A stretch of 64,000 bases of DNA. It comes from Fervidobacterium pennivorans DSM 9078. GTDB lineage: Bacteria > Thermotogota > Thermotogae > Thermotogales > Fervidobacteriaceae. Shown here in pieces: positions 15,418 through 45,164 of this stretch. The DNA lies in the NCBI RefSeq assembly GCF_000235405.2, contig NC_017095.1, positions 2,009,501 to 2,073,500 on the forward strand, read 5' to 3'. Under the pieces are notes generated by a model. That model saw only the letters and a program-made list of their open reading frames with translations. It made no database searches and had not been told where the DNA came from. The translations under genes were made by a program, and so were the position numbers. Numbering within the stretch: position 1 is the stretch's first letter; each line of letters starts with the position of its first letter.

Positions 15418-15484
15418 TTTGGAGGTGTAATTTTACCCCTATAAACACCAGTAACTTTTTTGCTATCTGTGAGGTGAAGAAAAC

Positions 15485-28608: not shown

Positions 28609-29160
28609 TTAGTGAGCTGGAATTTGTGTTGCACCCACGAACTCTACATTGTATTTTTCCGCGATTAATCTTGCTATCTCTTCGTCGGATTTGCCCAGTC
28701 GAAAAGATGCATTTGTTCCGTTGAGCGCTTTCCACAGAGCGTCACCAAAGGTTTTGTCTGGAAGATAGGGCTCTCTACTTAAGTATATTCTTGGATACCA
28801 TAAAAGGTCAATATGCTTGATTTTATACTTTATCCATTCTAATCCATATCCCCACCAGTAGTGCCAAACCTTCTTTGTTACATATTTAGCAGCGCGTCTG
28901 TCTTGAATCGAAAATATCATTTGCTCAAGAGTTTTTGAGTCGTCATATACTTTTATTTTTCTTTTGTATTCGAGAAAAAACAGTTGCTGATTTATCTCGT
29001 TCGTTTTTCTTAAAATGAGATACTTATAAGGATTTCTCAAAAAAAGAGACGGAGAAGGTAAAACCTCCTCCATCGTTACGGGTTTTCTTTCCGGAATCAA
29101 AATACCTAAAGTGACAACTGAGAAAAGAAAAAAGACAAATGCATAAAATTCTAATCTCAT
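28609..29160 (-). CDS. Membrane-anchored or secreted protein, unknown
   Basis: A 183-residue protein with a signal-anchor-like N-terminus (residues 4-22) and no other TM helix. The rest is basic and aromatic, with a Trp/Tyr-rich stretch (VWHYWWGYGLEWIKYKIK, about 99-116). I recognise no family. It heads the run leading to the small membrane protein, MMPL transporter and glycosyltransferase, and lies 82 bp downstream of ctpA. An envelope accessory role is inference from position only. Confidence 0.6.
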   Translation of the reverse strand: MRLEFYAFVFFLFSVVTLGILIPERKPVTMEEVLPSPSLFLRNPYKYLILRKTNEINQQLFFLEYKRKIKVYDDSKTLEQMIFSIQDRRAAKYVTKKVWHYWWGYGLEWIKYKIKHIDLLWYPRIYLSREPYLPDKTFGDALWKALNGTNASFRLGKSDEEIARLIAEKYNVEFVGATQIPAH

Positions 29161-29241
29161 CTCTCAAACTTCGCTTTCTTTTTGTTATACAACCCTTGAC
29201 TTGTCGAAACGATAAGGCGCTTTAACAAACTCGAAAGTTCA

Positions 29242-30465
29242 CTACTTGAGTTGTTTTACAAGGTAATCGAGGGCAACTTTTACAACGGGATCATTCTGGT
29301 CAACTTCTATCTCGGTTAACGTGTATGCTTTAGCATCAATCTTTCCTGGAGTACTTGTTGTTCCTTGTGTTTCCTCTACTTTGATATTTGGTTCAATTCC
29401 GACTTTGTGTATATCTTTTCCAGATGGTGTTAAGTAATGTGCGATTGTCAAAAAGACAGTTCCACCGTTGCTAAGTGGGAATCCTCTTTGCACGGACCCT
29501 TTTCCAAATGTCTTCTGACCTATGAGTGCAGCTCTTCCGTTTTCTTTGAGCGCAGCGGCAACGATTTCCGAAGCGGATGCAGAACCATTGTTTATGAGAA
29601 CTACCATAGGAACCTTTGGATAATTATTGCCTTGACTAATATAGCGCTCGGTGATTTTTCCGTCTCTATCTTTTACAGAGACGATAACCTTACCTGCGTC
29701 TAAGAATTGATTTGCCACGTGAATTGCAACATCAAGCAACCCGCCAGGATTATTGCGCAAATCAAGAATCAATGCGTCTATCTTCTTGTCATAGAGTTTT
29801 CTGAGAGCTTTTTGTAATTCGTTTGGGACAGGTTCGTTGAATTTAGTTAAAAGAACATAACCTATCTTTTTGTTTCCATATTCTGTTATCCCTGACTTGA
29901 CTGGAACTATCTGGATGATTTCTCGAACTATAGTAACCTCAATAATCTCACTTCCGCGTTTTATTGTCAGTTTTACGGAAGTTCCAGGTTTTCCTCTCAT
30001 TTTGTTAACCGCTTCCATGTACTCCATTTCGCTCACTGGTTGGTCGTCGATACCGATAATAAGGTCTCCTGCTTGCAGTCCTGCACGCCATGCGGGTGTT
30101 CCATACATTGGACTTACAACTTTAACGGCTCTGTTCTCACTGTCGTAGGTTACTTCGATACCAAGCCCGCCGTATTGACCTTCCATTTCTATTTGTTGTT
30201 CAGTCATCTGTGATGGTGGGTAATAGTAACTGAAATCATCTCCAAGACCTTTGATCATACCATCTATAGCGGAGTCTATGAGTTTGTTGAAATTAACGTT
30301 TTTGATGTCGTAGTAGTTGTAATTGATTCTATAGAGTGTTTCGTAAAGTGGCGAAATGTAATTCAGCAGCTCCTTATCAGAGGCACCAGATAGAATCATA
30401 CTTGATACAACAACTACAATAGCTAAAAAGACGTATGAAAGAACTCCCTTAAAAATCTTTCTCAT
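29242..30465 (-). CDS. ctpA: C-terminal processing protease, S41 family
   Basis: Periplasmic serine protease of 407 residues. It has an N-terminal signal/anchor (about 7-27), a PDZ domain (about 90-180, GGLGIEV and AGLQAGDLIIGIDDQPV) and an S41 catalytic domain (about 190-350) with DLRNNPGGLLDVA, the catalytic-Ser region NNGSASASEIVAAAL and the catalytic Lys in GQKTFGKGSVQ. Such enzymes trim C-termini of envelope proteins and murein hydrolases. The start ATG follows GGAAGGTGTG. It lies 31 bp after trmI on the same strand. Confidence 0.95.
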   Translation of the reverse strand: MRKIFKGVLSYVFLAIVVVVSSMILSGASDKELLNYISPLYETLYRINYNYYDIKNVNFNKLIDSAIDGMIKGLGDDFSYYYPPSQMTEQQIEMEGQYGGLGIEVTYDSENRAVKVVSPMYGTPAWRAGLQAGDLIIGIDDQPVSEMEYMEAVNKMRGKPGTSVKLTIKRGSEIIEVTIVREIIQIVPVKSGITEYGNKKIGYVLLTKFNEPVPNELQKALRKLYDKKIDALILDLRNNPGGLLDVAIHVANQFLDAGKVIVSVKDRDGKITERYISQGNNYPKVPMVVLINNGSASASEIVAAALKENGRAALIGQKTFGKGSVQRGFPLSNGGTVFLTIAHYLTPSGKDIHKVGIEPNIKVEETQGTTSTPGKIDAKAYTLTEIEVDQNDPVVKVALDYLVKQLK

Positions 30466-30496
30466 ACTTCACACCTTCCTTCCAAATTGCAGAATT

Positions 30497-31366
30497 TTAA
30501 ATGTTTACATTCTCGTTTTTATTTTCACTTTGGATTATTGCCTCTGTTTCTTTCATTTGCTCTTCTCTTGACTCTTCTTTGATTTTGACAAAAGAATTCA
30601 CCTTTCTTGCGAAAATCATATAAGTTGTGTGTGCAACCATTCTGTCAACAGGTCTCAGTCTATTTGGGTAAGGTTTAAACTGTCTCATCAAAGTTTCCCA
30701 AACTTCGACATCTATGAAAGGCAATTCGTACATTTTCTCAAGCACCATAGAGACCTGATTAACCGTTGGGCAGATTACACCTATCCGTCCCCCTCCAGCT
30801 AACGCTTCCCAACAAACTTGTATGTAATTCTCAGGGTCTGGCACATCCAAAAGCAGTGCATCTACGTTTGTTTCGTCAAAGCCGAAAGCAATATCACGCA
30901 ATTTTAACTCGACCCTATCTATAAGTCCCCATTCCGTGAGGTTTTGAGTTGCGAGTTTGTAGAAATCTTCCCTTCTTTCGTAAGCATAGACTTTTCCTTC
31001 GCTTCCCACAAGCCTTGCCATTGCTGCACACATAGCACCACTACCAACACCGGTATCGATAACTCTGCTACCCGGTTTAATGTCCAGTTTCATTACAATG
31101 TAGCTCGAATCCTTGGGATAAATAATTTGTGTTTTTCTTTTCATCGAGAATATGTCATCGATGTAAGTGGGTTGTAAGAGGTAATAGGATTTGTTTGTTT
31201 TTCCTATAGTAATTACGTCCCCGTAGTTTTTTCCAATAATTGTATCGAATTCAACAACACCGAGGTGGGTTCCTTTCTTTTTTCCCGCCTCAACTCTAAC
31301 AAGGAACTTAGTTCCATCTTCGCCATATAGCAAGACTCTGTCTCCATCCTTTATCAACTTGTTCAC
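30497..31366 (-). CDS. trmI: tRNA (adenine-N1)-methyltransferase, TrmI type
   Basis: Makes m1A at position 58 of the tRNA T-loop. The 289-residue protein has the small N-terminal domain and a Rossmann methyltransferase domain with the SAM-binding DTGVGSGAMC (about 107) and the acidic EVKLR/DVPDPE region that TrmI enzymes share. A charged tail rich in Glu/Lys/Asn extends past the usual end (about 265-289). GTG start at 31366; an in-frame TTG nine bases on is also possible. It is followed by ctpA. Confidence 0.92.
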   Translation of the reverse strand: MNKLIKDGDRVLLYGEDGTKFLVRVEAGKKKGTHLGVVEFDTIIGKNYGDVITIGKTNKSYYLLQPTYIDDIFSMKRKTQIIYPKDSSYIVMKLDIKPGSRVIDTGVGSGAMCAAMARLVGSEGKVYAYERREDFYKLATQNLTEWGLIDRVELKLRDIAFGFDETNVDALLLDVPDPENYIQVCWEALAGGGRIGVICPTVNQVSMVLEKMYELPFIDVEVWETLMRQFKPYPNRLRPVDRMVAHTTYMIFARKVNSFVKIKEESREEQMKETEAIIQSENKNENVNI

Positions 31367-31391
31367 ACCTGCCTTCTCTTTTCAGTCACTG

Positions 31392-32690
31392 TTATTTATT
31401 TTTAATTTTAGCATGGGAGGTCAAAAGTTCAATAACTACTAATCCAGCGATTAATAGACCAAGAATGTAACTTGATGATTGTATGCCAATGACATCTATA
31501 AGACTCCCTGCTAAGATAACAGATATGTATACTCCAAGAAGATTTACTGGGCGGGATTCAAATCTATTCGTTTCATTATTCGAATTGTATTCTGATAGAA
31601 ATCTCACTATTCCCGGAAGGGTAAAACCAAGACGCTTTTGTATTTGGTGACAAATGAGGAAACCAACTAAGAAAACAGAGGTAAATAACCAACCTGTTGT
31701 TGGAAGTATGAAAGTTGTTGCATAAATAAAGAGTGCAAATGCAGTACTCACAGGACCTAATAGGTCGAGCTTTTTAGAATAATTTTTGAAAAAGGTGACT
31801 AAAACAGTGTTTAAAACGTAGCCTAGAACAAAGAAATATAAAGTTTTGGCAGAATCAAACTCGGTAGGTATACCTTTGCGAATGTTTAGCAAATACCATG
31901 CATGCAAAGGTAACAGGAATTCAATTTGGTAAAGAAGCACTTTCGCAAGTCCGTATTTTAAGATTTGCTGACTACTTGTGTTAAGCACCTTCCAAGAAAT
32001 CTTCTTTGCCTGGAATTTATCGTATATTTCCGCTTTTTCACTAACACTAAGCTCTACTTTGTATTTCTTATCCTCAACTATTAAAAATGCCACAGCAAAT
32101 ACGGAAAAAAAGAACAAAAGACTGGCATGTGAGACTATTTCCCTATTCGAATCTGTTGTCAAAAGTCTGACGGAGTAACCGTATGACCAAACCGCACCTA
32201 TAATACTCCAAAGCGTGGGTTGAAGATTTAGTAGCATTCGGTTGAAATAATTCTTTTTGTCCTCTAACATGCCAAGCAAAGAAAGTGCGTAGATAAATAA
32301 TGAAAAGTTGAAGGTTATCACAACAAAAACGAGACTAAATAAATTTTTGTCAACTGTTAGCAAGTTATAAATTGTGGAAAGCAAAAAGGCAGACATTGTT
32401 CCAAACACAAGTATGTATGGTGTTCTTCGACCTATAGCTGTTCTGGTCATTTCAAAAAGAAACAGTATTTTCTCTTTGAAGAAAGCTATTAATATCAGCT
32501 CCGAATAAAAGCTTCCAAGCAAAATCGACTTGGGAATAGAAGACTTCAGCAAGAAGTTGAGCATTATGTAAATGTATGTTGGTATGAAAAAACCAATCCC
32601 AAAAAAGCCAAACGATAGGACGACTATGTCTTTAATATCTTCTGTTCTCAATTTTCTTAGGTTATACCTTTCACTACCTTTTGTTGCCAT
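31392..32690 (-). CDS. Polytopic membrane protein, possibly MFS-like
   Basis: A 432-residue protein with about 11-12 TM helices. The segment RTAIGRRTPYILVFG between helices 2 and 3 resembles the loop-2/3 motif of the major facilitator superfamily (sugar/GPH-like branch), but the rest does not let me name a substrate. The start ATG 32690 follows GGAGGTG at ten bases. A 7-bp inverted repeat sits just upstream of the ribosome-binding site. It lies between AMMECR1 and trmI on the same strand. Confidence 0.6.
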   Translation of the reverse strand: MATKGSERYNLRKLRTEDIKDIVVLSFGFFGIGFFIPTYIYIMLNFLLKSSIPKSILLGSFYSELILIAFFKEKILFLFEMTRTAIGRRTPYILVFGTMSAFLLSTIYNLLTVDKNLFSLVFVVITFNFSLFIYALSLLGMLEDKKNYFNRMLLNLQPTLWSIIGAVWSYGYSVRLLTTDSNREIVSHASLLFFFSVFAVAFLIVEDKKYKVELSVSEKAEIYDKFQAKKISWKVLNTSSQQILKYGLAKVLLYQIEFLLPLHAWYLLNIRKGIPTEFDSAKTLYFFVLGYVLNTVLVTFFKNYSKKLDLLGPVSTAFALFIYATTFILPTTGWLFTSVFLVGFLICHQIQKRLGFTLPGIVRFLSEYNSNNETNRFESRPVNLLGVYISVILAGSLIDVIGIQSSSYILGLLIAGLVVIELLTSHAKIKNK

Positions 32691-32705
32691 CAATTACTCA
32701 CCTCC

Positions 32706-32726
32706 GTGCCGTTTAGTTCACGGCAC
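32706..32726 (-). repeat. Hairpin in the leader of the membrane-protein gene
   Basis: GTGCCGT and ACGGCAC pair perfectly around a 7-base loop, immediately before the GGAGGTG of the downstream gene. There is no T run, so it is more likely an mRNA structure or operator than a terminator. Confidence 0.4.
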
Positions 32727-32760
32727 TGCAGTGTAACTCCATTTTGGGCTTCTGAAAACA

Positions 32761-33279
32761 TCATTTGTATCTTTCGACTGTGAATTTGTATATTTCAAAA
32801 TCATCGTCAAATATCCCTGCTTTGAGTTTAGCTATGCGTATTTGTTCTTCAACCGTATCTACACCTTCTATATCTGGCAAAAGTAATCCTCTTCTCCATC
32901 CTTTTTGAACGATTATTCCATACTTTTTTGGGTCAAGTTCAGCGATACTTCTCACCGGTTCATATGGGCTAAGAACGTCAACGTTAACGATGATGTTATC
33001 AAGCTCGTAAGGTTGGACTGGTGGAAACCTGGGGTCACGAGTTGAAGCTGCTATTGCGTTGTCACGAATCTCGTATGCAAGATTTTCACGAACGGGCATA
33101 AATGTTCCAATGCATCCTCTTAACGAGCCATCTGTATTGTGTAAGGTTACAAAACATCCAGCCCTTCTTTCAAAAAGCTCTTTGGGTAAACCTTCGTGTG
33201 GTTCTATAATCCTTCTGTGCTTGACGTAATTTTCTATCACTTCTATAGCCCATTTTACGTAAGGGTGCTCGCCTATCAT
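32761..33279 (-). CDS. AMMECR1-domain protein
   Basis: A 172-residue stand-alone AMMECR1 protein, a widely conserved family of unknown biochemical role. The family core is clear: [29 protein letters not shown] and VDVLSPYEP. The start ATG 33279 follows AAGGGGGGACC. It overlaps nothing but begins 45 bp after the coiled-coil gene. In many genomes AMMECR1 is paired with MEMO and a radical SAM enzyme; neither adjoins here. Confidence 0.9.
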
Positions 33280-33323
33280 ATTGGTCCCCCCCTTGCCACA
33301 GTAATCTTGCCTTTTGATGTTAA

Positions 33324-34001
33324 TCATGGCTTTTGCCTTTTCATAAGGTCGATTATCAACTGAACTTCTCCAACCCCCATCTTCATTTTCTTGGCAATTT
33401 CAATCGGTTCCAAACCACTCAGATACATGTCGAATATTAATACTTCTTTCTTGTTTTTTGCAACGTCTTCGTTATATTCGTTCTTTTCATAGCTTGCTGC
33501 ATATTCGTCAACTGTTTCTTTCATTGTTTCAAGGACACGTGTTGAGGTGGTTGATTTGTTTTTGAGAACATATCCTTGTATTAATGCCTTTTCGTCAGCG
33601 GAAAGCTTTGTATCGATGTCGGAGACATTTTCAGTGGTCTCATTTTTGCTATTACCTTTAAAGCTTTCGTTTTTGAGTTCTGGGTTAGATGCTGTTTCAC
33701 TTGAGATTTCTGTTTTTTGCAATAGGTTTTGCAACTGGACTGCTAAGGCAGCCAATGACACATACTGCTCGTTTAAGTCTTTAATCAAAGCTTTAGCTTC
33801 TTCCATTTTCCTATCAAGTTGTTCAAGTTTTGAGTCAACGAAGATTCTCACCTTTCCGATAAGTTCTACGAGTTTTTCTTCTTCCTCGTCTATTGCAGTT
33901 TTTTCTGTTCTTTTCTTGAAGCTTTCCAATATATAGGTAGCCCATGCAAACACTAGGGAACTTATCGATGCTAAAACTACAAACCAGTGGAAGGCTGACA
34001 T
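33324..34001 (-). CDS. Membrane-anchored coiled-coil protein, DUF6115/SwrB-like
   Basis: A 225-residue protein with one N-terminal TM helix (about 4-23), a coiled coil (about 38-97), an acidic Ser/Asn/Glu-rich linker and a C-terminal helix-turn-helix-like end ([24 protein letters not shown], about 195-219). The order TM, coiled coil and HTH-like tail resembles DUF6115/SwrB proteins of Firmicutes, some linked to flagellar regulation; this is recognition from memory and only moderately sure. It starts three bases after the stop of the previous gene, whose end contains its GGAGG site. Confidence 0.6.
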
Positions 34002-34003
34002 TT

Positions 34004-34606
34004 TTATTCACCCTCCTTTTGGTGGTCCTGGAGGGATAATCTTTTATATACGATTCTCGGGAAGGTCTTTATATCTTCTCCACTCCAAATAATCAAGGTT
34101 CCAAGATTTTTTGTTGGCGTAGGTTCCACGCTTTCAATTCGAACATCTTCCGGCAAATGTACTTTAAACGTGGAGTTTGCAACAGAGTTCATGCGAATCT
34201 GTCCCATGTCAAAGATGTAGGTATCGTTTTTTGGTTGCACAATGCCTTTTAGAACGACTGTTTCGGTAATCTCTAAGATACTCGCATTGTTCTTTATGTT
34301 TGACTTAAAATCCAGTACTTCGATTTTCTTACCTATGTCTTTTGAGATTTCGCTGAAGTATTTTTTGAACGTTTCAAGAGATGTTTGTTCATATGTTGTT
34401 AGATACTCTTCTTTCTTTTTCTCACTCTTGAACTTTAAACCACTTAAGGTTGTTATCGTAGCAACATCAGTGTAGCCAACCAAAACATCAGAGTTGTAGT
34501 ATTCAACGGTGAAGTTAGGACCTCTGAACATCAGAGTTATAACATCGGTAATAAGGAAGAAAAGAACTATGAACACAAGTAAATAAATCATTGTTTTATT
34601 TCCCAT
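34004..34606 (-). CDS. Single-pass envelope protein, probably DUF4897
   Basis: A 200-residue protein with an N-terminal TM helix (about 7-26) and an extracytoplasmic beta-rich domain (about 30-185). I think it is the Thermotogales-restricted DUF4897 family, but this is memory only. The start is set at ATG 34606, eight bases after AAGGA; a longer in-frame start at 34648 is less supported. It overlaps the 3' end region of the TrkH gene boundary (stop at 34632) by a gap of only 25 bp, so it belongs to the potassium operon. The role is unknown. Confidence 0.65.
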   Translation of the reverse strand: MGNKTMIYLLVFIVLFFLITDVITLMFRGPNFTVEYYNSDVLVGYTDVATITTLSGLKFKSEKKKEEYLTTYEQTSLETFKKYFSEISKDIGKKIEVLDFKSNIKNNASILEITETVVLKGIVQPKNDTYIFDMGQIRMNSVANSTFKVHLPEDVRIESVEPTPTKNLGTLIIWSGEDIKTFPRIVYKRLSLQDHQKEGE

Positions 34607-34631
34607 GTCACACATCCTTTCACCAATCGTT

Positions 34632-36143
34632 TCATTTAATCGAAACACCTGAGTTTATCCTTTTTGATAGACGTGTTTCATCAATTTTTTTGTTTAAATC
34701 GTTTATCACTTTCGTTATAGCATATATCACTATCAAAAATTCGAACCTTCCTGTGAACATTCCTATTATCAATGTCCACATGGCTGTTAATGGCATATTT
34801 GGAGATGTGACACCACAGCTAAGTCCAACACCATCCATAGCAGAAGCGAATTCAAACATCGAATTCAAAGCACCGTATCCGTGTAACATGAGTATAAATG
34901 AACCAATGACAAATGTTATCAGATAAAGTGATACGACAAGCAAAGCTTCCCGAATATTGTCATCGCCAAAGATAATTTGTTGTTCGCCTTTGAATATTAT
35001 CTTTTTCCTCACCGTGCCTCTTGGCATAAGGAACCCTTTTACGCTATCGTGCAGAGTGTTCAGTATGACCCAAATACGGAACTGTTTGATACCACTCGAT
35101 GTTGAGTCCATCATACCGCCAGATAGCATAAGTACTATTAGAATAAACATAAACGGCGAGAAAGCTATCCATTTCTCTTCATTTAACGGCAAAGTTTGGA
35201 AACCGGTTCCACTTACAGCCGAGACCGTTTGGAAAAGTATATACCTTAAAGCCTTTCCAAAGTTTTCGTAATACTTTCCTATAGCGTAAACAGATAAGAC
35301 AATTGCTGAACCAAATGAAGAACTTATCAATAACCAAGGTTCGCCATTCTTTAAAACAGCCTTAATATTTCCTTTCCAGAACGCATAATGTATTCCAAAT
35401 CCTGTTGCCCCGATAATCATGAGAACTATTGTGACGATTTCTATCGCTAGGTTATTGAACTCTCCTATACTACCGTTGCGAGTGGAAAACCCGCCAGTTG
35501 CTAATGCGGTCATCGTATGATTAAGTGCTTCAAACCAATTCATCCCGGATAGTCTCAAAGCGATTGTCCCAGCAATTGTGTAAGCAAAGTAAATTTCAAG
35601 TATCAGCTGAGCGGACCTTCTTATGTTCGGTACAAGATTGTCGGACCTACCTTCTGATTTATAAAGTCCTAAAGCCCTTGGACCCAAGACCATGCCCAGC
35701 ATCAAGACAGCGAAACCTGCACTGCCTACGTATTGTGTAAATGACCTCCAAAATAAAAGAAGTTTAGACAATTTGGTTACGTCTGTGAACATCGTTAATC
35801 CTGTGCCAGTTAGTCCACTCACTGATTCAAAAACAGCTTGAGAAAACGAAAGATTTCCTAACAAAATATGTGGAATGGCGGAAAGTAGCGATATCATAAC
35901 CCACGTGAAGATCGTAAGTACAGCTCCTTCTCTATATCCTATGGTTTCTATTTCTTCAACTCTCACTGCGAAACCAGTGAAGTATATGATAAAAGAAAGC
36001 ACAGCAGTAATTAAAAAAGGATAAGCGTTTTTGATTTCTTCTGGATAAAAGATGCAAAATACCGTAGGAACTAAAGCCATAAACGCATATTGAAACATAA
36101 CAAGCGTAAACGCTTTATATATTCTTAGATAGCTTTTCAGCAT
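34632..36143 (-). CDS. trkH: TrkH-family potassium uptake channel subunit
   Basis: Pore subunit of a Trk/Ktr potassium system, 503 residues. Four M1-P-M2 repeats are readable from their filter loops: GLTGTGLT, ALATGGFST, AVSGTGFQ and AMDGVGLSCGV. An additional N-terminal pair of helices places it with TrkH rather than KtrB. Two cytoplasmic RCK subunits are encoded upstream in the same operon. The ATG start region is preceded by GGAGGTTGTTATAA. The gap to the upstream RCK gene is 86 bp. Confidence 0.93.
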   Translation of the reverse strand: MLKSYLRIYKAFTLVMFQYAFMALVPTVFCIFYPEEIKNAYPFLITAVLSFIIYFTGFAVRVEEIETIGYREGAVLTIFTWVMISLLSAIPHILLGNLSFSQAVFESVSGLTGTGLTMFTDVTKLSKLLLFWRSFTQYVGSAGFAVLMLGMVLGPRALGLYKSEGRSDNLVPNIRRSAQLILEIYFAYTIAGTIALRLSGMNWFEALNHTMTALATGGFSTRNGSIGEFNNLAIEIVTIVLMIIGATGFGIHYAFWKGNIKAVLKNGEPWLLISSSFGSAIVLSVYAIGKYYENFGKALRYILFQTVSAVSGTGFQTLPLNEEKWIAFSPFMFILIVLMLSGGMMDSTSSGIKQFRIWVILNTLHDSVKGFLMPRGTVRKKIIFKGEQQIIFGDDNIREALLVVSLYLITFVIGSFILMLHGYGALNSMFEFASAMDGVGLSCGVTSPNMPLTAMWTLIIGMFTGRFEFLIVIYAITKVINDLNKKIDETRLSKRINSGVSIK

Positions 36144-36229
36144 TTATAACAACCTCCAGAAAATTCGGTTGCTTCTACATATGTATTCCATTACCGATTA
36201 CTGCAAAATTGAAGAGCGAAACAAGCTGT

Positions 36230-36889
36230 TTACGAGCTAAAAAATGATAGAACCTCCATACGCTTTTCTTCTCGGCACACAAGGACAATCTCGTCACCAG
36301 GTTCGAGTGTAGTTTCACCACGAGGTATCAAGAAATTATCGCCTCTTTTTATCCCTACTATGACCACATCTTCTGGCACGCTAAGTTCCTTAATCTTTTT
36401 ATGGACGATATTTGAATCCCATGTTAGAGTGATTTCCAATATAGCTACACCTTTAGAAAATGTTTTCTCTTCAAGGTCACGTGTTATCTGGCTTCCGAAA
36501 AGCAATGGTTCCAAATTTCTCATAATCAAATCTGTTACACCAAGCGTTCTGATACCAAAGCGTTCAAATAAGTCGAGATTTTCAGAGTTGTTTAATAAAG
36601 TAACTACGTTCTTTACTCCGTAATATTCTTGAACCAAACGAGCGATAAAGAAATTTTTTCTGTCTCTTTCCATAAGTAGGACAACAATATCGTTTGGCTC
36701 AATCCCAAGCTGGTCGAGGACTTTTTTTGATGTGCCGTCCCCGTTGACAATTGTAGCATTAAGTGTCTTTGAGTATTCTTCACATAAATCTTGGTCTTTG
36801 TTAACAAAATAAACGTCGTAACCTTGTGCTATTAATCTTTTAGCAAGAAAGTAAGGGACTCGTTCACCACCAATAATTATTATCTTCAC
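36230..36889 (-). CDS. Trk/Ktr RCK subunit with TrkA_C domain
   Basis: A 219-residue cytoplasmic gating subunit: an RCK (TrkA_N) domain (about 1-130) and a TrkA_C domain (about 140-219, ending EPGDEIVLVCREE). The nucleotide-binding glycine motif is altered: where RCK domains usually have GxGxxG, this has GGERVPY. It may therefore bind nucleotide differently or serve as the non-binding partner of the second RCK protein encoded just upstream, which keeps the motif. The two genes overlap by four bases (ATGA). Confidence 0.88.
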   Translation of the reverse strand: MKIIIIGGERVPYFLAKRLIAQGYDVYFVNKDQDLCEEYSKTLNATIVNGDGTSKKVLDQLGIEPNDIVVLLMERDRKNFFIARLVQEYYGVKNVVTLLNNSENLDLFERFGIRTLGVTDLIMRNLEPLLFGSQITRDLEEKTFSKGVAILEITLTWDSNIVHKKIKELSVPEDVVIVGIKRGDNFLIPRGETTLEPGDEIVLVCREEKRMEVLSFFSS

Positions 36890-37353
36890 TGTTTTTCACC
36901 AACCTTTGGTTCAACGTGTTCAAGGATATTGTGTTCAAAGGTATCTACCGTTAAATCGATTGGTGAGATTACATCAATACCACTCTTTATGAAAAGTGGC
37001 ACATTTTCTCTGTCATTTACAAGGGAGATAACCCTTGGAATTCCAAATATCTTTGCTCCAACCAACGATACAAAGTAATTAGTTGAATCGTCCTCTGTTG
37101 TTGTCACTAGTAAGTCCGCCTTTATAGCTTTTGCCCTTTCCATTGTTTCACGTTCGGTAGCATCACCTATAACTATAAAACCACCGTAATCTTCGGGCAG
37201 TAGGTCTAACGTGTTGGGATTTTTATCGACCACAGTGACGTTAAACCCTATTCTTGAGAGCCTGGTTGCAACTTCAAGACCGACTTTGCCACAACCGACT
37301 ACGACAACATAAAACCTAAGCCCAACAGGTATATTTATGTTAATCGGACTCAA
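36886..37353 (-). CDS. Trk/Ktr RCK subunit, TrkA_N only
   Basis: A 155-residue RCK domain with a canonical Rossmann glycine motif (VVVGCGKVGLEVA) and the acidic residue at the end of strand 2 (VVDKN) that binds the adenine ribose. It lacks a TrkA_C domain. The likely start is TTG 37353, eight bases after AAAGGG; ATG 37359 is two bases from it and GTG 37362 overlaps it. Either way it overlaps the end of the response-regulator gene. The two-protein RCK pair likely forms the gating ring under TrkH. Confidence 0.86.
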   Translation of the reverse strand: MSPININIPVGLRFYVVVVGCGKVGLEVATRLSRIGFNVTVVDKNPNTLDLLPEDYGGFIVIGDATERETMERAKAIKADLLVTTTEDDSTNYFVSLVGAKIFGIPRVISLVNDRENVPLFIKSGIDVISPIDLTVDTFEHNILEHVEPKVGEKQ

Positions 37354-37972
37354 GTTCATCACCCTTTCGGTATCCCTTCATGTTTATATCTAATGCTTTT
37401 GCTGCGTTCCTATGACGCTCAGCCAGTTCAGAATTTCCACGCTTTTCGAGAATTTCTGCCATTAGATAGTGTGGTATCGGTGAAGATGGCATGAGAGAAA
37501 ACATTGTTCTGACAATTTGTTCTGCTTTGTCCAAATCACCTGGAAAATTAGAATGTATTAATCCTTCAGCTTCTCTTAAGTATCTTTCAAATGACTCTTT
37601 CTTGTAGTCAAGCAAATCTTTGATTTTTCTCCGCAATTCATCCTGAGTGAAAGGCTTAGCTAAATAATCTACAGGCGCATATTTGCAAACTTCTGCAATG
37701 TTTTCGGGTGTTGCAAAAGCCGAAATAATCAAAACAGGTGTAAATATTCCTCTTAATCTTAATCTTTTTATGAATTCAATCCCATCAAGGTTCTCGTCAT
37801 TCTCAAACTTGATGTCGGTTGTAATCAGATCGAACTTGTATCTATCACAAAGTTTCAGAGCGGTTTCAACGTTTTCTGCTTCGACTGGATTGCACTCGTA
37901 GGCAGTGGAAATCATTCGAACCAACAAGTTCCTAACGTGCTTTTCATCATCAACTACCAGGACATCTATCAT
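37340..37972 (-). CDS. Response regulator with C-terminal TPR-like region, first gene of the Trk operon
   Basis: A 210-residue protein with a CheY-like receiver domain (about 1-122; acidic DD at 8-9, phospho-acceptor D53 in LITTDIKF, Lys in DYLAKPF) and a helical C-terminal part (about 130-200) that reads like two TPR helices pairs (AEQIVRTMF...AEILEKRGNSELAERH). No DNA-binding domain is visible. Its 3' end overlaps the RCK gene, so it is coupled to potassium transport genes. No histidine kinase adjoins; the partner is unknown. Confidence 0.88.
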   Translation of the reverse strand: MIDVLVVDDEKHVRNLLVRMISTAYECNPVEAENVETALKLCDRYKFDLITTDIKFENDENLDGIEFIKRLRLRGIFTPVLIISAFATPENIAEVCKYAPVDYLAKPFTQDELRRKIKDLLDYKKESFERYLREAEGLIHSNFPGDLDKAEQIVRTMFSLMPSSPIPHYLMAEILEKRGNSELAERHRNAAKALDINMKGYRKGDELESD

Positions 37973-37985
37973 CTTACTCGCCCCC

Positions 37986-38026
37986 TTCTTTGGAAATTAT
38001 ACCACTTCTTTGGAAATTGTACCACA
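37986..38026 (-). promoter_or_regulatory. Tandem 20-bp duplicated promoter core of the Trk operon
   Basis: Two direct 20-bp copies (37986-38005 and 38006-38025, one mismatch) each carry a minus-strand -10: TGGTATAAT (TATAAT 37996-38001) and TGTGGTACAAT (TACAAT 38016-38021). They lie just before the response-regulator start at 37972. The downstream copy would give a leader of under 20 bases. -35 elements are weak. Confidence 0.55.
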
Positions 38027-38100
38027 CCTTCGTTTTTTATGCACTCCCCGTGGTAGAATAAGGAAAGCTTTGGGATAGCAATTCATTGGAGGTGGAAGGT

Positions 38101-40650
38101 ATGAAAGGGAAAGCTTTTGCAAATTTCTTGAAATCTGTAGTAGGTTTGCTACTTTTTGGATTTATGTTCAGTTACGTTTTAGATGCTGTAGGCTTCTCTG
38201 ATGTGTTAACTCAGTACAAGGGTGGATGGGCTGATAAGGTTTTGTACATGATAATGATTGACCGTTTTAACGATGGAGAACCTTCCAACAATAACCAGGG
38301 AAAAGGTGAATACAACCCTCGTGACGGAGCGAAATACAGCGGAGGAGATTTGAAGGGTATCATCGATAAAATCGACTATATAAAAGGTCTTGGTGTCGAT
38401 GGAATTTGGATAACACCACCTGTGGCTAATCAGTGGTGGGATCCATGGGTAAATTACGGTGGATACCATGGCTACTGGGCAAGAGATTTTAAAAAGGTTG
38501 ACGAGCACTTTGGAACACTTGAAGATTACAAAGCGCTTGCAGATGCACTACACAAGAATGGAATGAAGTTAATCCAGGACATTGTTGTTAACCATGTTGG
38601 AAACTACTTTAGATTCAGAAACGGGAAATTCGAACTGAACACTGGAAGTATACCAACGTCAGCACCAACTCAATACCCGTTCAGTTTGAACAATTACAAC
38701 GACCCTGAACAGAGGCAGAGAGCTATATACCACTGGACACCTGATATCAACAACTACTCAGACCCTGAGCAAAAACTCAACTACCAAATGAGTGGTTTAG
38801 ATGACCTTAACACTGAAAACCCAGAAGTTGTTGAAGCATTAAAGGATTCTTATGCATACTGGATAAAAGAAGTTGGGGTTGATGGCTTTCGTGTGGATAC
38901 AGCAATGTACGTTCCCAAATCCTTTTTCGACGAGTTTTTCAAAGGCAACGGAGAGATGTTCTCCTTGAAAGAAGACTTTATAGCCTTTGGGGAAACATGG
39001 CTTTCTTCAAAACCATACGAGAATGTATCTGACTTTGAGATAGCTTCCTACTTTGACCACGGTTTTAATTCTATGCTTGATTTCACCTTGATGGAAGAAA
39101 TTAGACGCGTAATAAAAGGTGGTCAACCAACCGATTTTCTTGCTTACAGACTCAAGGTGCGAAACGAGACACTAAAAAAAGGTCTACTTGTGACATTTAT
39201 TGATAACCACGATATGGAAAGGTTTGGAAAAGGTGCAACACCGAATATCACCATGCAAGCTCTTGGATTGTTGTTGACACTACCTGGAATGCCAGTTATA
39301 TATTATGGTACAGAGCAGTACTTTGAAGAAACGCGTGCGAGTATGTTCAAAGGTGGATGGGGGTCGTTCGGTCAAGATCACTTCAACACCGAGAGTGATA
39401 TGTACAAGTTTATCAAGAACGGTATCGAATTCAGAAAATCACACCCGGCAACAAGATACGGAGAAGTTAACGTGCTTTTGTCGGAAAAAAGAGGTGCAGG
39501 TTTGTTAGTTTATACATTGAAATCTAAAGAGGAGGAACTGTTCGTTGTTTTAAATACGGCGAACGATGCAAGGATAGCAAATTTCAAAACGGATTATGAG
39601 CCTGGAACAACCTTGGAACCTATTTACAATTTCAGCGGAGGCGTAGGTACTCCTCTTGTTGTAAAAGATGGAGGCTACGTGTCTTTGCGAATTCCAGCAC
39701 GAACACTGACAGTTTTCGGTATATTAACCGAGAAATCGGAACTCTACAAAACTAACACAACTATCAGTTTGAACCTTTCAGACGGTGAAAAGATAACCGC
39801 ACTGAAAGAAATAACCGGGACGACGAATGCAAAAGCGGTTTATGTTTACATAGACAGAAAAGTTGAGAACGAAATTAAGATAGAACCAACAGATGGGAAA
39901 TTCGCATTTACAATAGATCCATTCAAACTCGACCCAGGTGAGCATGTACTACTTGTCAGGGCAGTTGGAAAAAACGTTAAAGATACAGTTTACACTGATG
40001 AAATAAGATTCATAGTTGAACTAGAAAAGAAATTGTTAGCTGAAACGAAAGACCCTCTCGATGATGACATAGGGTTTACAGGAACTTACGTTTACCCAAC
40101 CGATGCAACATTTAAGCGGCAGATGGATATTGTTGAAGCGAAAGTTGAAAGCATTGGTAGTACGTTGGTAATTTCTATCAAACCAAGGGACTTAACAAAA
40201 ACCTGGGGACCACCAAACGGCTTTGACCACGTTACATATCAAATATTCATCGATGACCCAACAAAGAAAGGCACGGGGGTTTTGCCTTTACAGAACTATG
40301 AGTTCGATAATTGGGACTGGGATTGGGAAGTTTTTGCAACTGGTTGGTCGAGTGCGATTTACACTTCACAAGAAGCATCAAAAGATAGATTTGGGACGCA
40401 GATAGGTTCTCCCGAAGTTTTTGTTGAAGATGGTTGGGTAAAGATAATCATAAAAGGTGACTGGCTTGGCAATCCTTCATCTTTCGAAGGATGGACAATA
40501 TACGTGACTAGTTGGGACTACGATGGTATTGAAAACAAATTCAGACCACTCCAGCAAGAACCAAAAGCCTACATCATGGGTGGAGGGAATCCAACGGATC
40601 CACTAATAATGGATGACCTCTGGTTGGAAATTAAATCAAATCAAGATTGA
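38101..40650 (+). CDS. Secreted GH13 alpha-amylase with C-terminal glucodextranase-like module
   Basis: An 849-residue exported glycosidase. It has a signal peptide or anchor (about 1-33), a GH13 catalytic barrel (about 45-480) with nucleophile D266 (GFRVDTAMY), acid/base E298 (AFGETW) and D371 (DNHDMERF), a C-terminal beta domain, an Ig-like linker domain (about 560-640), and a C-terminal module (about 645-845) like glucodextranase C-domains (starting KDPLDDDIGFTGTYVYPT) that may bind sugar or the cell surface. The start ATG 38101 has GGAGGTG six bases upstream. It would degrade starch or pullulan outside the cell; the exact product is unknown. Confidence 0.88.
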   Translation: MKGKAFANFLKSVVGLLLFGFMFSYVLDAVGFSDVLTQYKGGWADKVLYMIMIDRFNDGEPSNNNQGKGEYNPRDGAKYSGGDLKGIIDKIDYIKGLGVDGIWITPPVANQWWDPWVNYGGYHGYWARDFKKVDEHFGTLEDYKALADALHKNGMKLIQDIVVNHVGNYFRFRNGKFELNTGSIPTSAPTQYPFSLNNYNDPEQRQRAIYHWTPDINNYSDPEQKLNYQMSGLDDLNTENPEVVEALKDSYAYWIKEVGVDGFRVDTAMYVPKSFFDEFFKGNGEMFSLKEDFIAFGETWLSSKPYENVSDFEIASYFDHGFNSMLDFTLMEEIRRVIKGGQPTDFLAYRLKVRNETLKKGLLVTFIDNHDMERFGKGATPNITMQALGLLLTLPGMPVIYYGTEQYFEETRASMFKGGWGSFGQDHFNTESDMYKFIKNGIEFRKSHPATRYGEVNVLLSEKRGAGLLVYTLKSKEEELFVVLNTANDARIANFKTDYEPGTTLEPIYNFSGGVGTPLVVKDGGYVSLRIPARTLTVFGILTEKSELYKTNTTISLNLSDGEKITALKEITGTTNAKAVYVYIDRKVENEIKIEPTDGKFAFTIDPFKLDPGEHVLLVRAVGKNVKDTVYTDEIRFIVELEKKLLAETKDPLDDDIGFTGTYVYPTDATFKRQMDIVEAKVESIGSTLVISIKPRDLTKTWGPPNGFDHVTYQIFIDDPTKKGTGVLPLQNYEFDNWDWDWEVFATGWSSAIYTSQEASKDRFGTQIGSPEVFVEDGWVKIIIKGDWLGNPSSFEGWTIYVTSWDYDGIENKFRPLQQEPKAYIMGGGNPTDPLIMDDLWLEIKSNQD

Positions 40651-40663
40651 TTTGTAAGTAAAC

Positions 40664-40690
40664 AAAGCCCGCCATCGGCGGGCTTTTTAG
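40664..40690 (+). terminator. Terminator of the amylase gene
   Basis: AAAGCCCGCC / GGCGGGCTTT stem with a 3-base ATC loop and a T run, 13 bp after the stop. It may also stop converging minus-strand transcription. Confidence 0.88.
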
Positions 40691-40695
40691 ATTTT

Positions 40696-42042
40696 TTAGT
40701 TAGTGTTTTTCTTGAAAACCTTTGGAATCGTTGTCAAACTGAAAGAATATCCCTCTTTTACAATCCTGACCTCAATAAAAATTGCTACGTTCTTTTTTAT
40801 GTTGCTTTCTTTAAGTATGAATTCAACCATTTTGTCCCCGTTTTCACTAAATTGTATTTGCAAATCTGTACTTTCCCATCGTGCCTTTCTGAAATCCAGC
40901 GTATCTGAAAGAGCAATCCATCCCTTTGCGTATTCTAACTCTTCAGATGTTCTAAGGATTATGCCGTTTTCGGTCTCTTTCCACGATATCTCTGGAAGTT
41001 TGTTTATTACAGACAGTGCAAAAAATGCTCTGAGAGTGTTGAAAAATTCAACCTGATTACTTACATTGTGTGCCTCATTTGGCATAACGTATGCATACCT
41101 TGGGATAGGTAAGTCGTAGAAATATAGCTGAGAAGAATCAACAACCCAATACGGGTCGTTCGTGCCTATAACGACAAGTTTTGGTATGGTGAGTTTATCT
41201 TTGTAATAGAAGGGGTCAATTGCCCTGACAATTTCTGGAACTTCGGTTTGGGAAGATTCAGCTATCATTCTCGTGAGGCCATACCTTGTGTAGTCTTTTA
41301 TCTGTTCACTGAATGTTCCATAATGTTCGAGCTGTTTTCGCATTTGTGCGGGCATGTTTAGATTATCGTACACGATTGGAACTATCGCAAGAACTCTTTT
41401 TTCGATAGCACCTGTCAAATATGTTGTCCAACCTCTTTTGGATGCGCCAGTTACTAAAAACTTTTGAAGTTCGATTTGTAATTCTTTTTTGAGAAAGTCC
41501 TGAGCACAGTTCATCGTTGCAACGACAGCCTTTACCATGGGAAAGAGCAAGGGCCAATCTTCCTCGCCTGTTTCGAGGTATTTTGCTAAAGTGTAAGCAA
41601 TCAGGGCATCTTCTTTGAGACCAAATAATGGTTGGTTTGGTACATCCCATAGTATCACAAACGGAGCGCCGATACTTTCAATAACGAGAGCGTATTGGCT
41701 CAGGCTTGCCATGGGATCTTTTGGTGCCGAACCAGATACCATAAGGATTCCATGGTTTTTGTAAGCTAGATTTCGTGGGATGTATATACCCACTTTGTGG
41801 TTCCATTCGATGCCTCTTCAGGTTTGACTCTTCACGTTCAAAACATAGAGCTTCCCTCTGAGAAGTGAAGTTGAGGAAGAAATTAGAGTATAAGCAGATG
41901 TATCTGAACTTTCCAGGTACTTTTCCAGAGAAACGGCAAAAGAATCATTGGGAGAAAGCAAGAAGAGAAAAGTGAGAATAACTAGTATCATGAGCCTATT
42001 TGCTGGACTTTTATTTTCCTGAGTTTTTGTCACTTTGCTCAT
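40696..42042 (-). pseudogene. PhoPQ-activated pathogenicity-related (PqaA) type hydrolase, interrupted by an in-frame TGA
   Basis: One reading frame runs from ATG 42042 to 40696, but codon 75 (41820-41818) is TGA. Before it are a TM/signal peptide (about 16-34) and the family opening LEKYLESSDTSAY...NVKSQT. After it, the same frame resumes RGIEWNHKVGIYIPRN and runs intact for about 370 codons. The family consensus here is SQTW-R, so the TGA most simply replaces a TGG Trp codon. Alpha/beta-hydrolase features survive: nucleophile in GASKRG, Asp in GTNDPYW, His in NEAHNV. The start overlaps the kinase gene end by 32 bp. It could be a recent nonsense mutation, a sequencing error or a readthrough gene. 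Confidence 0.82.
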
Positions 42043-43855
42043 CGTGTTCATCCCCCTTCTTTTCAGGTATCGTGATGATTATCTTGGTGCCTGTTGCCGG
42101 CGAGCTCTCTAAATCTATTTCACCTCCAAGCTTTTCAACAACCAATGTGTAAACTATGCTCAACCCAAGTCCTGAGCCAACACCTGGTTTCGTTGTAAAG
42201 AAAGGTTCGAATGCATGCTTTTTTGTTTTTTCGTCCATACCTTTTCCATTGTCTGTAAATGTTATCTTTATCACTTCTTTCCCTTCGTCAGTGACTATTT
42301 TTTCTGCTTTTATAAGTATCGTACCTTCTTCATTTTCATCGAATGCATGCATCAATACGTTGTCTATGAGATTAATCAAAATTTGTGCAAGTGCACCCGG
42401 AATGCTGTAGACGACCAAGTCGTTTGGTATTTCCGTATATATTTTTACATTTGACTTTCTAAGTTTCGGATACATAGCCCTTAGGACATCTTCTACTAAC
42501 ACTTTCAGATTCACAGAAGAATAGTTTTCGACCATCTCGCTTATAGCAACGCGTTTGAGACTCTGGACGAGGTCGATTATTCTTCTGATATTTCTGGTCA
42601 TTATTTCCGTTAACTGGTATAAGACATCAACCTTGTCTAAGAATTCACTTTCGGTTAGTTCCTCTGAGAAGAATTTATTCTTCAAATCATTTAATGTGTG
42701 TTCAACTTCTGTTAGTGACGAGTAAATCACCCCGGCTGGTGTGTTAACATCGTGTGCTATATTTACCATCATCTTACCCAATGCCGCCATCTTTTCTGAG
42801 TTTATTATTTTACTTTGTGCTTCCTTCAATTCATTAAAAGCGGCTTCAAGTTCGTTGTTCATTTCATTGAGTTCGTCTACCATTTTCTTCAATCTTTCAT
42901 TTTTTTCAACGTTTATGGCAAAAAGAATAATCACGACTGAAAACAAGATTGCCAAAGATGTACTGAGCGTTATTATCGCGTGGGAAAAACCTCTCAACCT
43001 GACGACATTGTTAGCTTCTTCAACTATCTCGGAATATGGAATGACTGCAACTACCGTAAGATTATATTTCGCAACTTTGCGAAATGTTGCGAATTTTTTA
43101 ACTTGAAAAGTATAAATTCCTTCTCCTTTTTCATATTTCATTATCATTTCAGCAAAAGATTTTGTCCAGCGATTATTCGCTAAATCGAAGTTCCCAACAT
43201 ATTCTTCCATAGGATGTGCTACCGTTAATGTGCCGTAGAGTAACCCAGCGTAACCGGATTTTCCAAATTTTGTCTGCACTATCAATTTTTGGAGATCGTC
43301 TGCAGGATAAAGTCCTATCAAAATCGCTTTCGTTTTTCCATCTGGACCTTTGATTCCTACCAGAACGGCGATGTTTTTCTTTCCTTTGTATTCGTATAGC
43401 ATGTATATATCATGCTCCTTTTCACCTGAAAAAATCATTTCAGTTACCTTAGTTGGTATAGACATCTTCACTAATCCGCCTTCGGAGACGACACGATTAT
43501 CTTTCAACATAATAAATATTTCCAGATAACCTTCCAAACGCAAAGCGTTGTTAGCGTTTGCAACTTCCCTTTGCAGCAGCCGAATTGGTAATTCATCCAT
43601 AGCGCCCTTGATGTAAATCGAAAAGTCATTATCTGCAGTGTATTTTACAAGGGGTCTCACTATTTGTTCTAAATATTTCTCAATATCTGATGTTATTTTT
43701 TCGACAACAGTCGTTTGGATTCGAGATATCAGATGGATTGCCACAGAATTAGCTAGCAGATGAGCTATAAGTATTACAATTCCCAAGGAAAGAATACTTG
43801 AAATCACAATAGCTATTATTAGACATGTTTTTTTAGATTTTAAAATCTTTAACAA
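42011..43855 (-). CDS. Sensor histidine kinase with dCache-like sensor (HK2)
   Basis: A 614-residue membrane kinase with a TM helix (about 11-36), a large extracytoplasmic domain of about 260 residues that looks like a double Cache sensor, a second TM (about 297-322), then coiled linker, DHp with H368 (NIAHDVNTPAG) and HATPase (LIDNVLMHAF, FTDNGKGMD, GSGLGLS). The start is set at TTG 43855, seven bases after GGAGG; an in-frame ATG at 43897 has no such site. The catalytic half is closely similar to HK1 at 14062-15417. No response regulator adjoins; the downstream gene is the interrupted hydrolase. Confidence 0.9.
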   Translation of the reverse strand: MLKILKSKKTCLIIAIVISSILSLGIVILIAHLLANSVAIHLISRIQTTVVEKITSDIEKYLEQIVRPLVKYTADNDFSIYIKGAMDELPIRLLQREVANANNALRLEGYLEIFIMLKDNRVVSEGGLVKMSIPTKVTEMIFSGEKEHDIYMLYEYKGKKNIAVLVGIKGPDGKTKAILIGLYPADDLQKLIVQTKFGKSGYAGLLYGTLTVAHPMEEYVGNFDLANNRWTKSFAEMIMKYEKGEGIYTFQVKKFATFRKVAKYNLTVVAVIPYSEIVEEANNVVRLRGFSHAIITLSTSLAILFSVVIILFAINVEKNERLKKMVDELNEMNNELEAAFNELKEAQSKIINSEKMAALGKMMVNIAHDVNTPAGVIYSSLTEVEHTLNDLKNKFFSEELTESEFLDKVDVLYQLTEIMTRNIRRIIDLVQSLKRVAISEMVENYSSVNLKVLVEDVLRAMYPKLRKSNVKIYTEIPNDLVVYSIPGALAQILINLIDNVLMHAFDENEEGTILIKAEKIVTDEGKEVIKITFTDNGKGMDEKTKKHAFEPFFTTKPGVGSGLGLSIVYTLVVEKLGGEIDLESSPATGTKIIITIPEKKGDEHDEQSDKNSGK

Positions 43856-43902
43856 TCTATCGCCTCCATGCATTTTTAGTTTTTGCAACTTTTCCATAGG
43901 GT

Positions 43903-43942
43903 TTGACTATTTCTACCAATATTATATACCATGTGATATAAT
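43903..43942 (+). promoter_or_regulatory. Divergent promoter region between HK2 and the alcohol dehydrogenase
   Basis: TGTGATATAAT ends at 43942, 65 bp before the dehydrogenase start, and a TTGACT lies upstream at 43903-43908 with too long a spacer. A minus-strand TATAAT at 43921-43926 lies about 66 bp before the HK2 start. The -10 elements are the only convincing parts. Confidence 0.35.
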
Positions 43943-44006
43943 ATCAAAAGAAAACAAAGTAATCAAACTGTCTGTTAACAAATTTGTGATTAGGAGGTGA
44001 ACAGAT

Positions 44007-45164
44007 ATGGAAAACTTTGTTTTTCACAACCCAACGAAATTAGTCTTTGGAAAAGGAACCGTTGAAAAGATAGGTGAATATCTGAAAAAAGATGGGATAA
44101 GAAAAGTTTTGATGCTTTACGGTGGAGGTTCGATTAAGAAAAATGGTGTATACGAAAAGGTTGTTAGGTCGCTCCATGATAATGGTATAGAAAAAGTAGA
44201 GGTTTCTGGTGTTAGACCTAATCCTGTTCTTTCAAAGGTTCACGAAGCTATACAAGTTGCACGTGAGAATAACGTTGAGGCGATTCTTGCAGTAGGTGGA
44301 GGAAGCGTTGTCGACAGTGCAAAAGCAATAGCAGCTGGTTTCTATTACGATGGCGATATTTGGGACGCGTTTATAGGTAAGTACAATGTAAAGAAGGCAC
44401 TTCCTTTGTATGTTATCCTTACGATGTCAGCTACAGGTACTGAAATGAACGGAAATGCGGTTGTGACAAACGAAAAAACTCAAGAGAAGTTTTACTTTAG
44501 CTCAAAACACGTCTATCCGGTCCTTTCGATTGTTGATCCGACTACACAATACAGCTTGCCAGCGAATCAAGTTGTGTATGGTGCGATAGATGCGATAAGT
44601 CATGTTATGGAGTATTACTTTGATGTTGCTGGTAGTGATTTAATTGATAGAATAGATGAAGGTATAATTAAAACACTGATGGAAACCACAGAGGTAATAC
44701 TCAAAGAACCTGAAAACTACGAAGCTAGGGCAAACTTCTGCTTAGCTACAACGTTAGCACTCAATGGTTTGACAGGTTTGGGCACAACAGGTGGAGATTG
44801 GTCTTCTCACGAGCTTGAGCATGCTATAAGTGCGTTCAATCCTGATATCGCCCATGGCGCAGGTCTTGCAATTGTATTTCCTGCTTGGATGAGTTACGTT
44901 AAAGAACAGATATCTGAAAAACTTATCAAGTTTGGTAAGAATGTATTTGGTATGAGTGGCGAATTCTCACCAGATGATGTTATCAATCAACTTAAGAGTT
45001 GGTATAAGAAAATTGGTGCTCCTGTAACATTGAAAGAGGTTGGTATCAACAAGGAAGATATAGAAAAAATTACTCAACTTGCCAACAAACACGCGCCATT
45101 TGGAACAGTTAAGGAACTGAAGATGGAAGATATCAGAAAGATATACGAAATAGCCTATGAATAA
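44007..45164 (+). CDS. Iron-containing alcohol dehydrogenase (butanol-dehydrogenase-like)
   Basis: Group III, iron-dependent NAD(P)H alcohol dehydrogenase of 385 residues. It shows the cofactor-binding GGGSVVDSAK (about 97), the catalytic-domain ligands Asp/His in YGAIDAISHVMEYY, His in HELEHAISAF and His in DIAHGAGLA. It is most like BdhA-type enzymes that reduce aldehydes to alcohols during fermentation; substrate and NADPH preference are inference. The start ATG follows TAGGAGGTGA. transketolase follows 42 bp later and is probably cotranscribed. Confidence 0.92.
   Translation: MENFVFHNPTKLVFGKGTVEKIGEYLKKDGIRKVLMLYGGGSIKKNGVYEKVVRSLHDNGIEKVEVSGVRPNPVLSKVHEAIQVARENNVEAILAVGGGSVVDSAKAIAAGFYYDGDIWDAFIGKYNVKKALPLYVILTMSATGTEMNGNAVVTNEKTQEKFYFSSKHVYPVLSIVDPTTQYSLPANQVVYGAIDAISHVMEYYFDVAGSDLIDRIDEGIIKTLMETTEVILKEPENYEARANFCLATTLALNGLTGLGTTGGDWSSHELEHAISAFNPDIAHGAGLAIVFPAWMSYVKEQISEKLIKFGKNVFGMSGEFSPDDVINQLKSWYKKIGAPVTLKEVGINKEDIEKITQLANKHAPFGTVKELKMEDIRKIYEIAYE

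Follow-up and report, generated by a model that had tools for sequence, protein, structure and literature searches.

The window analysed here is a 64,000-nucleotide stretch of the Fervidobacterium pennivorans DSM 9078 genome (NC_017095.1, positions 2,009,501 to 2,073,500), and it contains a Trk-type potassium uptake operon that opens with a gene for a response regulator built from a receiver and a tetratricopeptide-repeat half (REC-TPR). The four-gene core of this operon, coding for REC-TPR, the two ring proteins RCK-A and RCK-B, and TrkH, is tightly packed at 37972-34632 on the minus strand. Listed in window coordinates, the core genes and the two genes that follow them are:

37340-37972, minus strand: REC-TPR response regulator, 210 aa (PF00072, E 1.7e-21)
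36886-37362, minus strand: RCK-A, 158 aa, gating-ring subunit having TrkA_N without TrkA_C and the motif VGCGKVG (GxGxxG), TM1088A homologue (Pfam, PDB match)
36230-36889, minus strand: RCK-B, 219 aa, TrkA_N plus TrkA_C, with IGGERVP replacing GxGxxG, TM1088B homologue (Pfam, PDB match)
34632-36143, minus strand: TrkH, 503 aa, potassium-translocating subunit (PF02386, E 1.1e-45)
34004-34648, minus strand: DUF4897 protein, one N-terminal membrane span by eye, genus-level neighbour
33324-34001, minus strand: DUF6115 protein, one N-terminal membrane span by eye, genus-level neighbour

With the starts as called, REC-TPR and RCK-A overlap by 23 nucleotides (nt), RCK-A and RCK-B by 4 nt, and TrkH and DUF4897 by 17 nt, and an 86-nt gap separates RCK-B from TrkH. 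TrkH is the sole TrkH-type match in the F. pennivorans genome (at E 1e-10); it scores 264 bits against TIGR00933, below the cut-off of 331, so the family call rests on Pfam. No DNA-binding domain was found in the operon proteins scanned with Pfam, which include those of the window and those of the kinase-bearing operons described below. There is no cognate histidine kinase at the window operon: a divergent amylase-like gene lies upstream of REC-TPR, and the kinase and lone receiver that head related operons are not present there.

The receiver of the window REC-TPR occupies residues 1-120 and retains all of its phosphosite residues (D8, D9, D53, S84 and K106). In an AlphaFold2 model made with 70 relatives (pLDDT 87.5), the last receiver helix, a long helix at residues 110-139, runs into three more helices that complete two hairpins, and the resulting TPR pair ends at about residue 194. 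The receiver fold is confirmed structurally (VIA-align Z ~20, root-mean-square deviation 1.4-1.7 over 117-123 residues). Because the VIA-align rows spanned the receiver, the TPR half was predicted and searched alone, giving a model with pLDDT 86.2 whose top structural matches are TPR proteins, at weak E-values (best 0.033). Pfam TPR_14 matches the C-terminal half in 41 of the 70 family members, and a profile built from this half hits consensus TPR chains with E 1.7e-62; the TPR alignment, A3, holds 47 of the 69 Thermotogota halves and six others. Pfam, profile and structure thus agree that the C-terminal helices are TPRs. At Pfam E 0.5 the window protein returns PF00072, TPR_19 and a weak AgrB match and nothing else, with no sign of an EIIA domain of the phosphotransferase system (PTS), and neither the window protein nor the family scan contains a nucleic-acid- or DNA-binding Pfam match. 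The first-pass annotation, which described a receiver joined to protein-interaction helices and lacking a DNA-binding domain, was therefore correct on the regulator.

The position of REC-TPR was followed through 103 Thermotogota genomes (in this comparison genomes are labelled G, loci L, families f and genus g). BLAST at E 1e-15 matches the regulator in 59 genomes, and removal of two that hold 452-aa regulators of another kind (G010, G017) leaves 57. In 51 of these RCK-A immediately follows REC-TPR on the same strand, the matched parts overlapping by up to 20 nt or standing up to 97 nt apart; the 51 genomes belong to f1 (19), f2 (10), f4 (1), f5 (1), f7 (3), f9 (15) and f11 (2). A profile run on the fetched loci adds 12 genomes, all of them linked (G018, G039, G053, G038, G040-G046 and G054). 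Altogether REC-TPR is present in 69 of the 103 genomes and stands directly 5' of RCK-A in 63 of the 69, across eight families, a gene order far beyond chance. The six exceptions comprise five unlinked copies, all in f3 (G087, G088, G097, G098 and G099), and one copy at a contig end (G034). In both unlinked loci that were read (L058 6662-8064 and L024 1495-2900), REC-TPR overlaps the start of a gene for a 254-255-aa protein, the L024 copy of which has no Pfam match. A separate scan of named genomes with the window regulator gives 18 loci, three with full-length matches (two Fervidobacterium, one Thermotogota bacterium) and 15 with partial matches, mostly to the receiver, and does not widen the range of the regulator.

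As a neighbour control, the genes that flank the core, one before REC-TPR and one after TrkH, were clustered for 31 loci. Upstream, no cluster is common to two Thermotogota families; downstream, the only common gene is found in f9 and one f10 genome (hisS-like by eye). The four-gene core has been held amid turnover of its context, since the flanking genes differ from family to family. Linkage in the relatives, whose absence the first-pass annotation had named as a refutation, is thus upheld, and the receiver-TPR, RCK-A, RCK-B, TrkH order that it proposed is real. Its inclusion of two envelope proteins in the operon does not stand: DUF6115 lies outside 34004-37972, the interval assigned to the operon, among 29 loci with a readable downstream gene only the window and L035 have DUF4897 after TrkH, and both proteins are rejected as parts of the system, being neighbours at the level of the genus only. 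In one close relative, G068 (L129 3377-5457), RCK-A is split by an inserted 529-aa open reading frame (ORF), transposase-like by eye; its REC-TPR, RCK-B and TrkH look intact despite the split.

A profile of Thermotogota REC-TPR was searched against 390 genomes, of which 287 lie outside the phylum. The 70-row profile alignment, A1, includes one kinase-bearing sequence (the second copy of G005) and hence is not purely kinase-less; L005 and L039, which hold other regulators, and the duplicates L001 and L035-L037 were left out of it. The matches listed form two groups, full-length ones reaching to E 1.5e-47 and, from 2.1e-37, those in which a protein, mostly a larger one, is matched at its receiver end. 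Six of the listed full-length copies lie outside the phylum (G120, G126, G139, G216, G273 and G284), and each of the six belongs to an operon in which a histidine kinase (~620 aa) and then a lone receiver precede REC-TPR, followed by two RCK proteins and finally TrkH; most of the neighbouring genes overlap slightly. The lone receiver is missing in G216, the G120 contig begins within the kinase gene, and G139 and G284 have a full-length first RCK protein (220 aa). A seventh full-length copy comes from G391, a genome of the phylum to which G216 belongs; its genes are ordered alike, and its lone receiver is degenerate. Three phylum searches found a full-length copy in five of eight genomes, and because they gave disjoint sets and G139 and G284 occur in none of them, the seven out-of-phylum genomes represent four phyla. 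The phylum of G305 (24 genomes) gave 0 matches in a search without a positive control, and this result is uninformative. In G120 (L169 3918-5975) the kinase-Trk operon is followed by a second TrkH-like protein (456 aa) and a single RCK protein, a Ktr-like pair.

Kinase-bearing operons also occur as second copies within Thermotogota. G005 has the usual operon plus a 7.2-kb contig with kinase, receiver, REC-TPR, RCK-A, RCK-B and TrkH, and the second copy of G031 consists of kinase, receiver and REC-TPR followed by the contig end. HAMP, PAS, HisKA and HATPase domains are identified by Pfam in the six kinases scanned (G005, G031, G126, G273, G284 and G216). Thus, the earlier suggestion that a two-component signal is tied to Trk is well grounded, because the linkage is conserved and a kinase heads the same operon in four further phyla. 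The eight kinase-bearing copies tested separate cleanly from the rest in the REC-TPR tree (support 0.93), and the best split of the TrkH tree is the kinase-bearing set plus G008 (Jaccard 0.89); the second copy of G031, whose contig ends before RCK-A, was omitted from the trees. The pattern may reflect an ancient module that lost its kinase in the main line of Thermotogota, or else a later reunion. The phosphosites are intact in 9 of 9 REC-TPR proteins and 7 of 8 lone receivers of the kinase-bearing copies and in 50 of the 69 kinase-less Thermotogota copies, the 70th row of the phosphosite alignment being the kinase-bearing G005 copy, which lies outside the 69. The comparison of 9/9 with 50/69 goes in the expected direction, with small numbers and with copies that are not independent within a family.

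The transporter itself has a known counterpart. RCK-A is closest in the PDB to TM1088A (E 4.8e-25) and RCK-B to TM1088B (E 2e-49), and an intact motif in RCK-A together with an altered motif in RCK-B recurs across the Thermotogota loci listed. The two-subunit Trk of Thermotoga maritima (TM1088A, TM1088B and TM1089) has the same RCK-A, RCK-B and TrkH types as the window. In its published description, TM1088A and TM1088B form a 4+4 ring that assembles from these two proteins alone when they are produced in E. coli, and AMP stabilises TM1088A, whereas TM1088B showed no stabilisation; the unusual split TrkA is thus a known, solved assembly and nothing new (PMC4380455). By homology to T. maritima, the window system would likewise have a 4+4 octameric ring that gates TrkH. 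In the Thermotoga-like genomes examined, the place before RCK-A that REC-TPR takes in the window is held by a gene that looks rhomboid-like by eye, and the words 'response regulator' are absent from the main text of the T. maritima Trk paper (PMC4380455). Because the T. maritima lineage is without the regulator at that locus, structural work on the ring could not reveal it.

The output of two-component systems is usually transcriptional, and the prevailing view of Trk is that nucleotides on its ring set its activity. The architecture of the present operon, shared by thermophilic bacteria and a few further lineages, suggests that a sensory system may control the Trk transporter rather than the trk genes. 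In the reading that we favour, with a probability of roughly 0.58, the operon codes for a Trk transporter with its own signalling adaptor, and the output of the two-component system would be Trk itself, probably by way of a phosphorylation-dependent contact between REC-TPR and the gating ring. A histidine kinase would phosphorylate D53 of REC-TPR, the resulting change would travel along the long alpha5 helix to reach the TPR pair, and the pair would dock on the Trk complex, in all likelihood on the RCK-A/RCK-B ring (or on TrkH), and thereby raise or lower potassium flux. The lone receiver may act as a phosphate sink or competitor, and in most Thermotogota, whose operon is without the kinase, REC-TPR is presumably served by a kinase encoded elsewhere. 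The observed linkage strengthens this interpretation, as do gene order, domains, phosphosites, conservation and kinase co-occurrence; phosphorylation, ring contact, gating by REC-TPR, and the direction and sign of control are steps that we infer.

Several observations weigh against an adaptor that acts on Trk. Within Thermotogota the kinase of the kinase-bearing operons has full-length matches only in G031 and G005, and the window genome is without an orthologue; G038 has a 29% match to it, ~60 kb from its trk genes. The RCK-A and RCK-B trees are without a clean kinase-bearing group (Jaccard 0.56 and 0.50). The five f3 genomes hold REC-TPR apart from trk and with a degenerate receiver, and it can therefore persist unlinked. 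Conversely, RCK-A has no regulator upstream in 17 genomes inspected (six Thermotoga-like g13, G089, nine f10 and G008), and REC-TPR is dispensable for Trk there. Finally, a phosphosite residue is altered in 19 of the 69 kinase-less copies: in all 11 from f10, which carry Asp53Glu (L059, L062, L090-L097 and L103), in all five unlinked f3 copies, where the second acid has become Ala or Ser and the Ser/Thr has become Gly (in this alignment), in 2 of 17 from f9 and in 1 of 2 from f11. A change of Asp to Glu is a frequent mimic of the phosphorylated state, and other genera of f10 are without REC-TPR upstream of RCK-A.

Transporters serve as sensors in some sensing systems, and information at this operon may flow in reverse, with the Trk ring or TrkH sensing nucleotide or potassium, the TPR half reading that state and setting the phosphorylation of REC-TPR and of the kinase and the lone receiver where these are present, and the output going to other targets in the cell. 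Linkage and kinase co-occurrence fit such a scheme equally well, and the lone receiver that accompanies 7 of the 9 kinase-bearing copies with an intact site could pass the signal onward, but no effector gene recurs beside the operon, whose downstream neighbours differ. We consider reversed flow unlikely, although it stands foremost among the alternatives. REC-TPR may instead control the making of Trk, as a phosphorylation-switched factor either for assembly or stability of the RCK chains or for expression of the operon. TPR proteins often act in assembly, and a role of this kind would suit the first gene of the operon, which overlaps or abuts RCK-A. However, no nucleic-acid-binding domain was found in REC-TPR, and both the self-assembly of TM1088A and TM1088B (PMC4380455) and the Thermotoga-like genomes without REC-TPR argue that the ring does not always need it; this alternative follows the first in our estimate and is likewise improbable.

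It is less probable again that REC-TPR and Trk are merely co-expressed because both are needed under the same stress, the regulator having its partner elsewhere. The five f3 genomes with REC-TPR apart from trk, two of them read and showing the overlap with the 254-255-aa protein, are what such a relationship would produce. Yet those unlinked copies have degenerate receivers, adjacency to RCK-A has been kept over eight families despite flanking-gene turnover, and adjacency recurs in 7/7 of the full-length out-of-phylum matches listed or found later, in four phyla. Co-expression is the most weakened of the three alternatives because of the neighbour control and because the out-of-phylum loci were found by similarity, not by position.

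A wider extension of the favoured adaptor reading is that kinase, lone receiver, REC-TPR, RCK-A, RCK-B and TrkH form a potassium transport system of a class of its own. Its kinase would gate the transporter directly, via phosphorylated REC-TPR on the RCK ring, with ion flux in place of transcription as the two-component output, and Thermotogota would present stages in its decay: loss of the kinase with the regulator retained, a receiver fixed by Asp53Glu in one family (11/11), and loss of the regulator in Thermotoga-like and other genera. We hold this extension tentatively, as possible but short of even odds.

Two kinase genes lie elsewhere in the window. A 628-aa histidine kinase with a Cache-type sensor (42011-43897, minus strand) lies ~4 kb upstream of REC-TPR on the same strand and has no response regulator adjacent to it. 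It looks chimeric, because its N-terminal half resembles one kinase of the F. pennivorans genome (39%) and its C-terminal half another (59%). Among 102 other Thermotogota genomes a near-identical copy is found only in G069; the kinase is rejected as a conserved partner of REC-TPR and kept as a possible local one. At 14038-16918 (plus strand) the second kinase is followed by a receiver protein with an HD-GYP-like C-terminal half (by eye). Several genomes of the genus have a similar kinase ~22 kb from trk, and G099 and G097 have one ~4 kb from their unlinked REC-TPR.

Beyond the two DUF genes the minus-strand gene run extends to ~29242, with genes for AMMECR1, a 433-aa membrane ORF, a tRNA methyltransferase and a CtpA-like protease (by eye), and a terminator-like stem of 12 pairs at 29074-29048 lies near its end. 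The 433-aa ORF (31392-32693, minus strand) resembles a membrane protein, has no Pfam match at E 0.01 and is conserved in position in L035 and L036. No Rfam element reaches the gathering score in 29000-44500, and a promoter scan is uninformative (23 found vs 24.2 expected).

Several known systems share features with the operon. RssB-type stand-alone adaptor regulators combine a receiver with a non-DNA-binding output and act by protein contact. RssB is the best NCBIfam name for the window REC-TPR, at 56.9 bits and below the cut-off of 329; the partner of RssB is RpoS, whereas the output of REC-TPR is a two-repeat TPR and its partner would be Trk. EIIANtr, which is not encoded in a transporter operon, reportedly regulates TrkA, a finding attributed to Lee et al. 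2007. Unphosphorylated PtsN acts on YcgO (PMC11808508). Both of these PTSNtr cases likewise involve a phosphorylation-switched protein that acts by contact on a potassium transport protein; unlike the window system, they employ a PTS protein in place of a response regulator phosphorylated on Asp. Regulators of the NtrX type act as transcription factors, and NtrX (AAA+, DNA-binding output) differs from the 210-aa window REC-TPR with its TPR output, which scores 50.3 bits against a cut-off of 600. In proteobacteria the NtrYX/PlrSR-trkAH arrangement likewise puts a two-component pair immediately before trkA-trkH: trkAH comes after some of the NtrYX/PlrSR genes, plrR and trkA overlap by 4 bp, and trkA occurs in 27% of 198 plrS neighbourhoods (PMC13001219). 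KdpDE is likewise a two-component system dedicated to potassium uptake, with a transcriptional output in which KdpE binds the kdpFABC promoter (PMC9239096); REC-TPR scores 40.4 bits against KdpE, with its OmpR-type DNA-binding output, where the cut-off is 325. To call a phospho-regulator linked to Trk unusual, as the first-pass annotation did, was too strong, since the NtrYX/PlrSR-trkAH operons (PMC13001219) and the EIIANtr-TrkA interaction credited to Lee et al. 2007 are precedents. A REC-TPR regulator together with Trk was not found in the literature searched, where subscription journals were thinly covered.

The kinase-adaptor-Trk operon would make a compact test system, and its natural variants (Asp53Glu, kinase loss and regulator loss) could test the role of the phosphoryl group. 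If the favoured reading is true, an operon that unites sensor kinase, adaptor and Trk would provide a fast route from membrane to channel for osmotic or potassium control.

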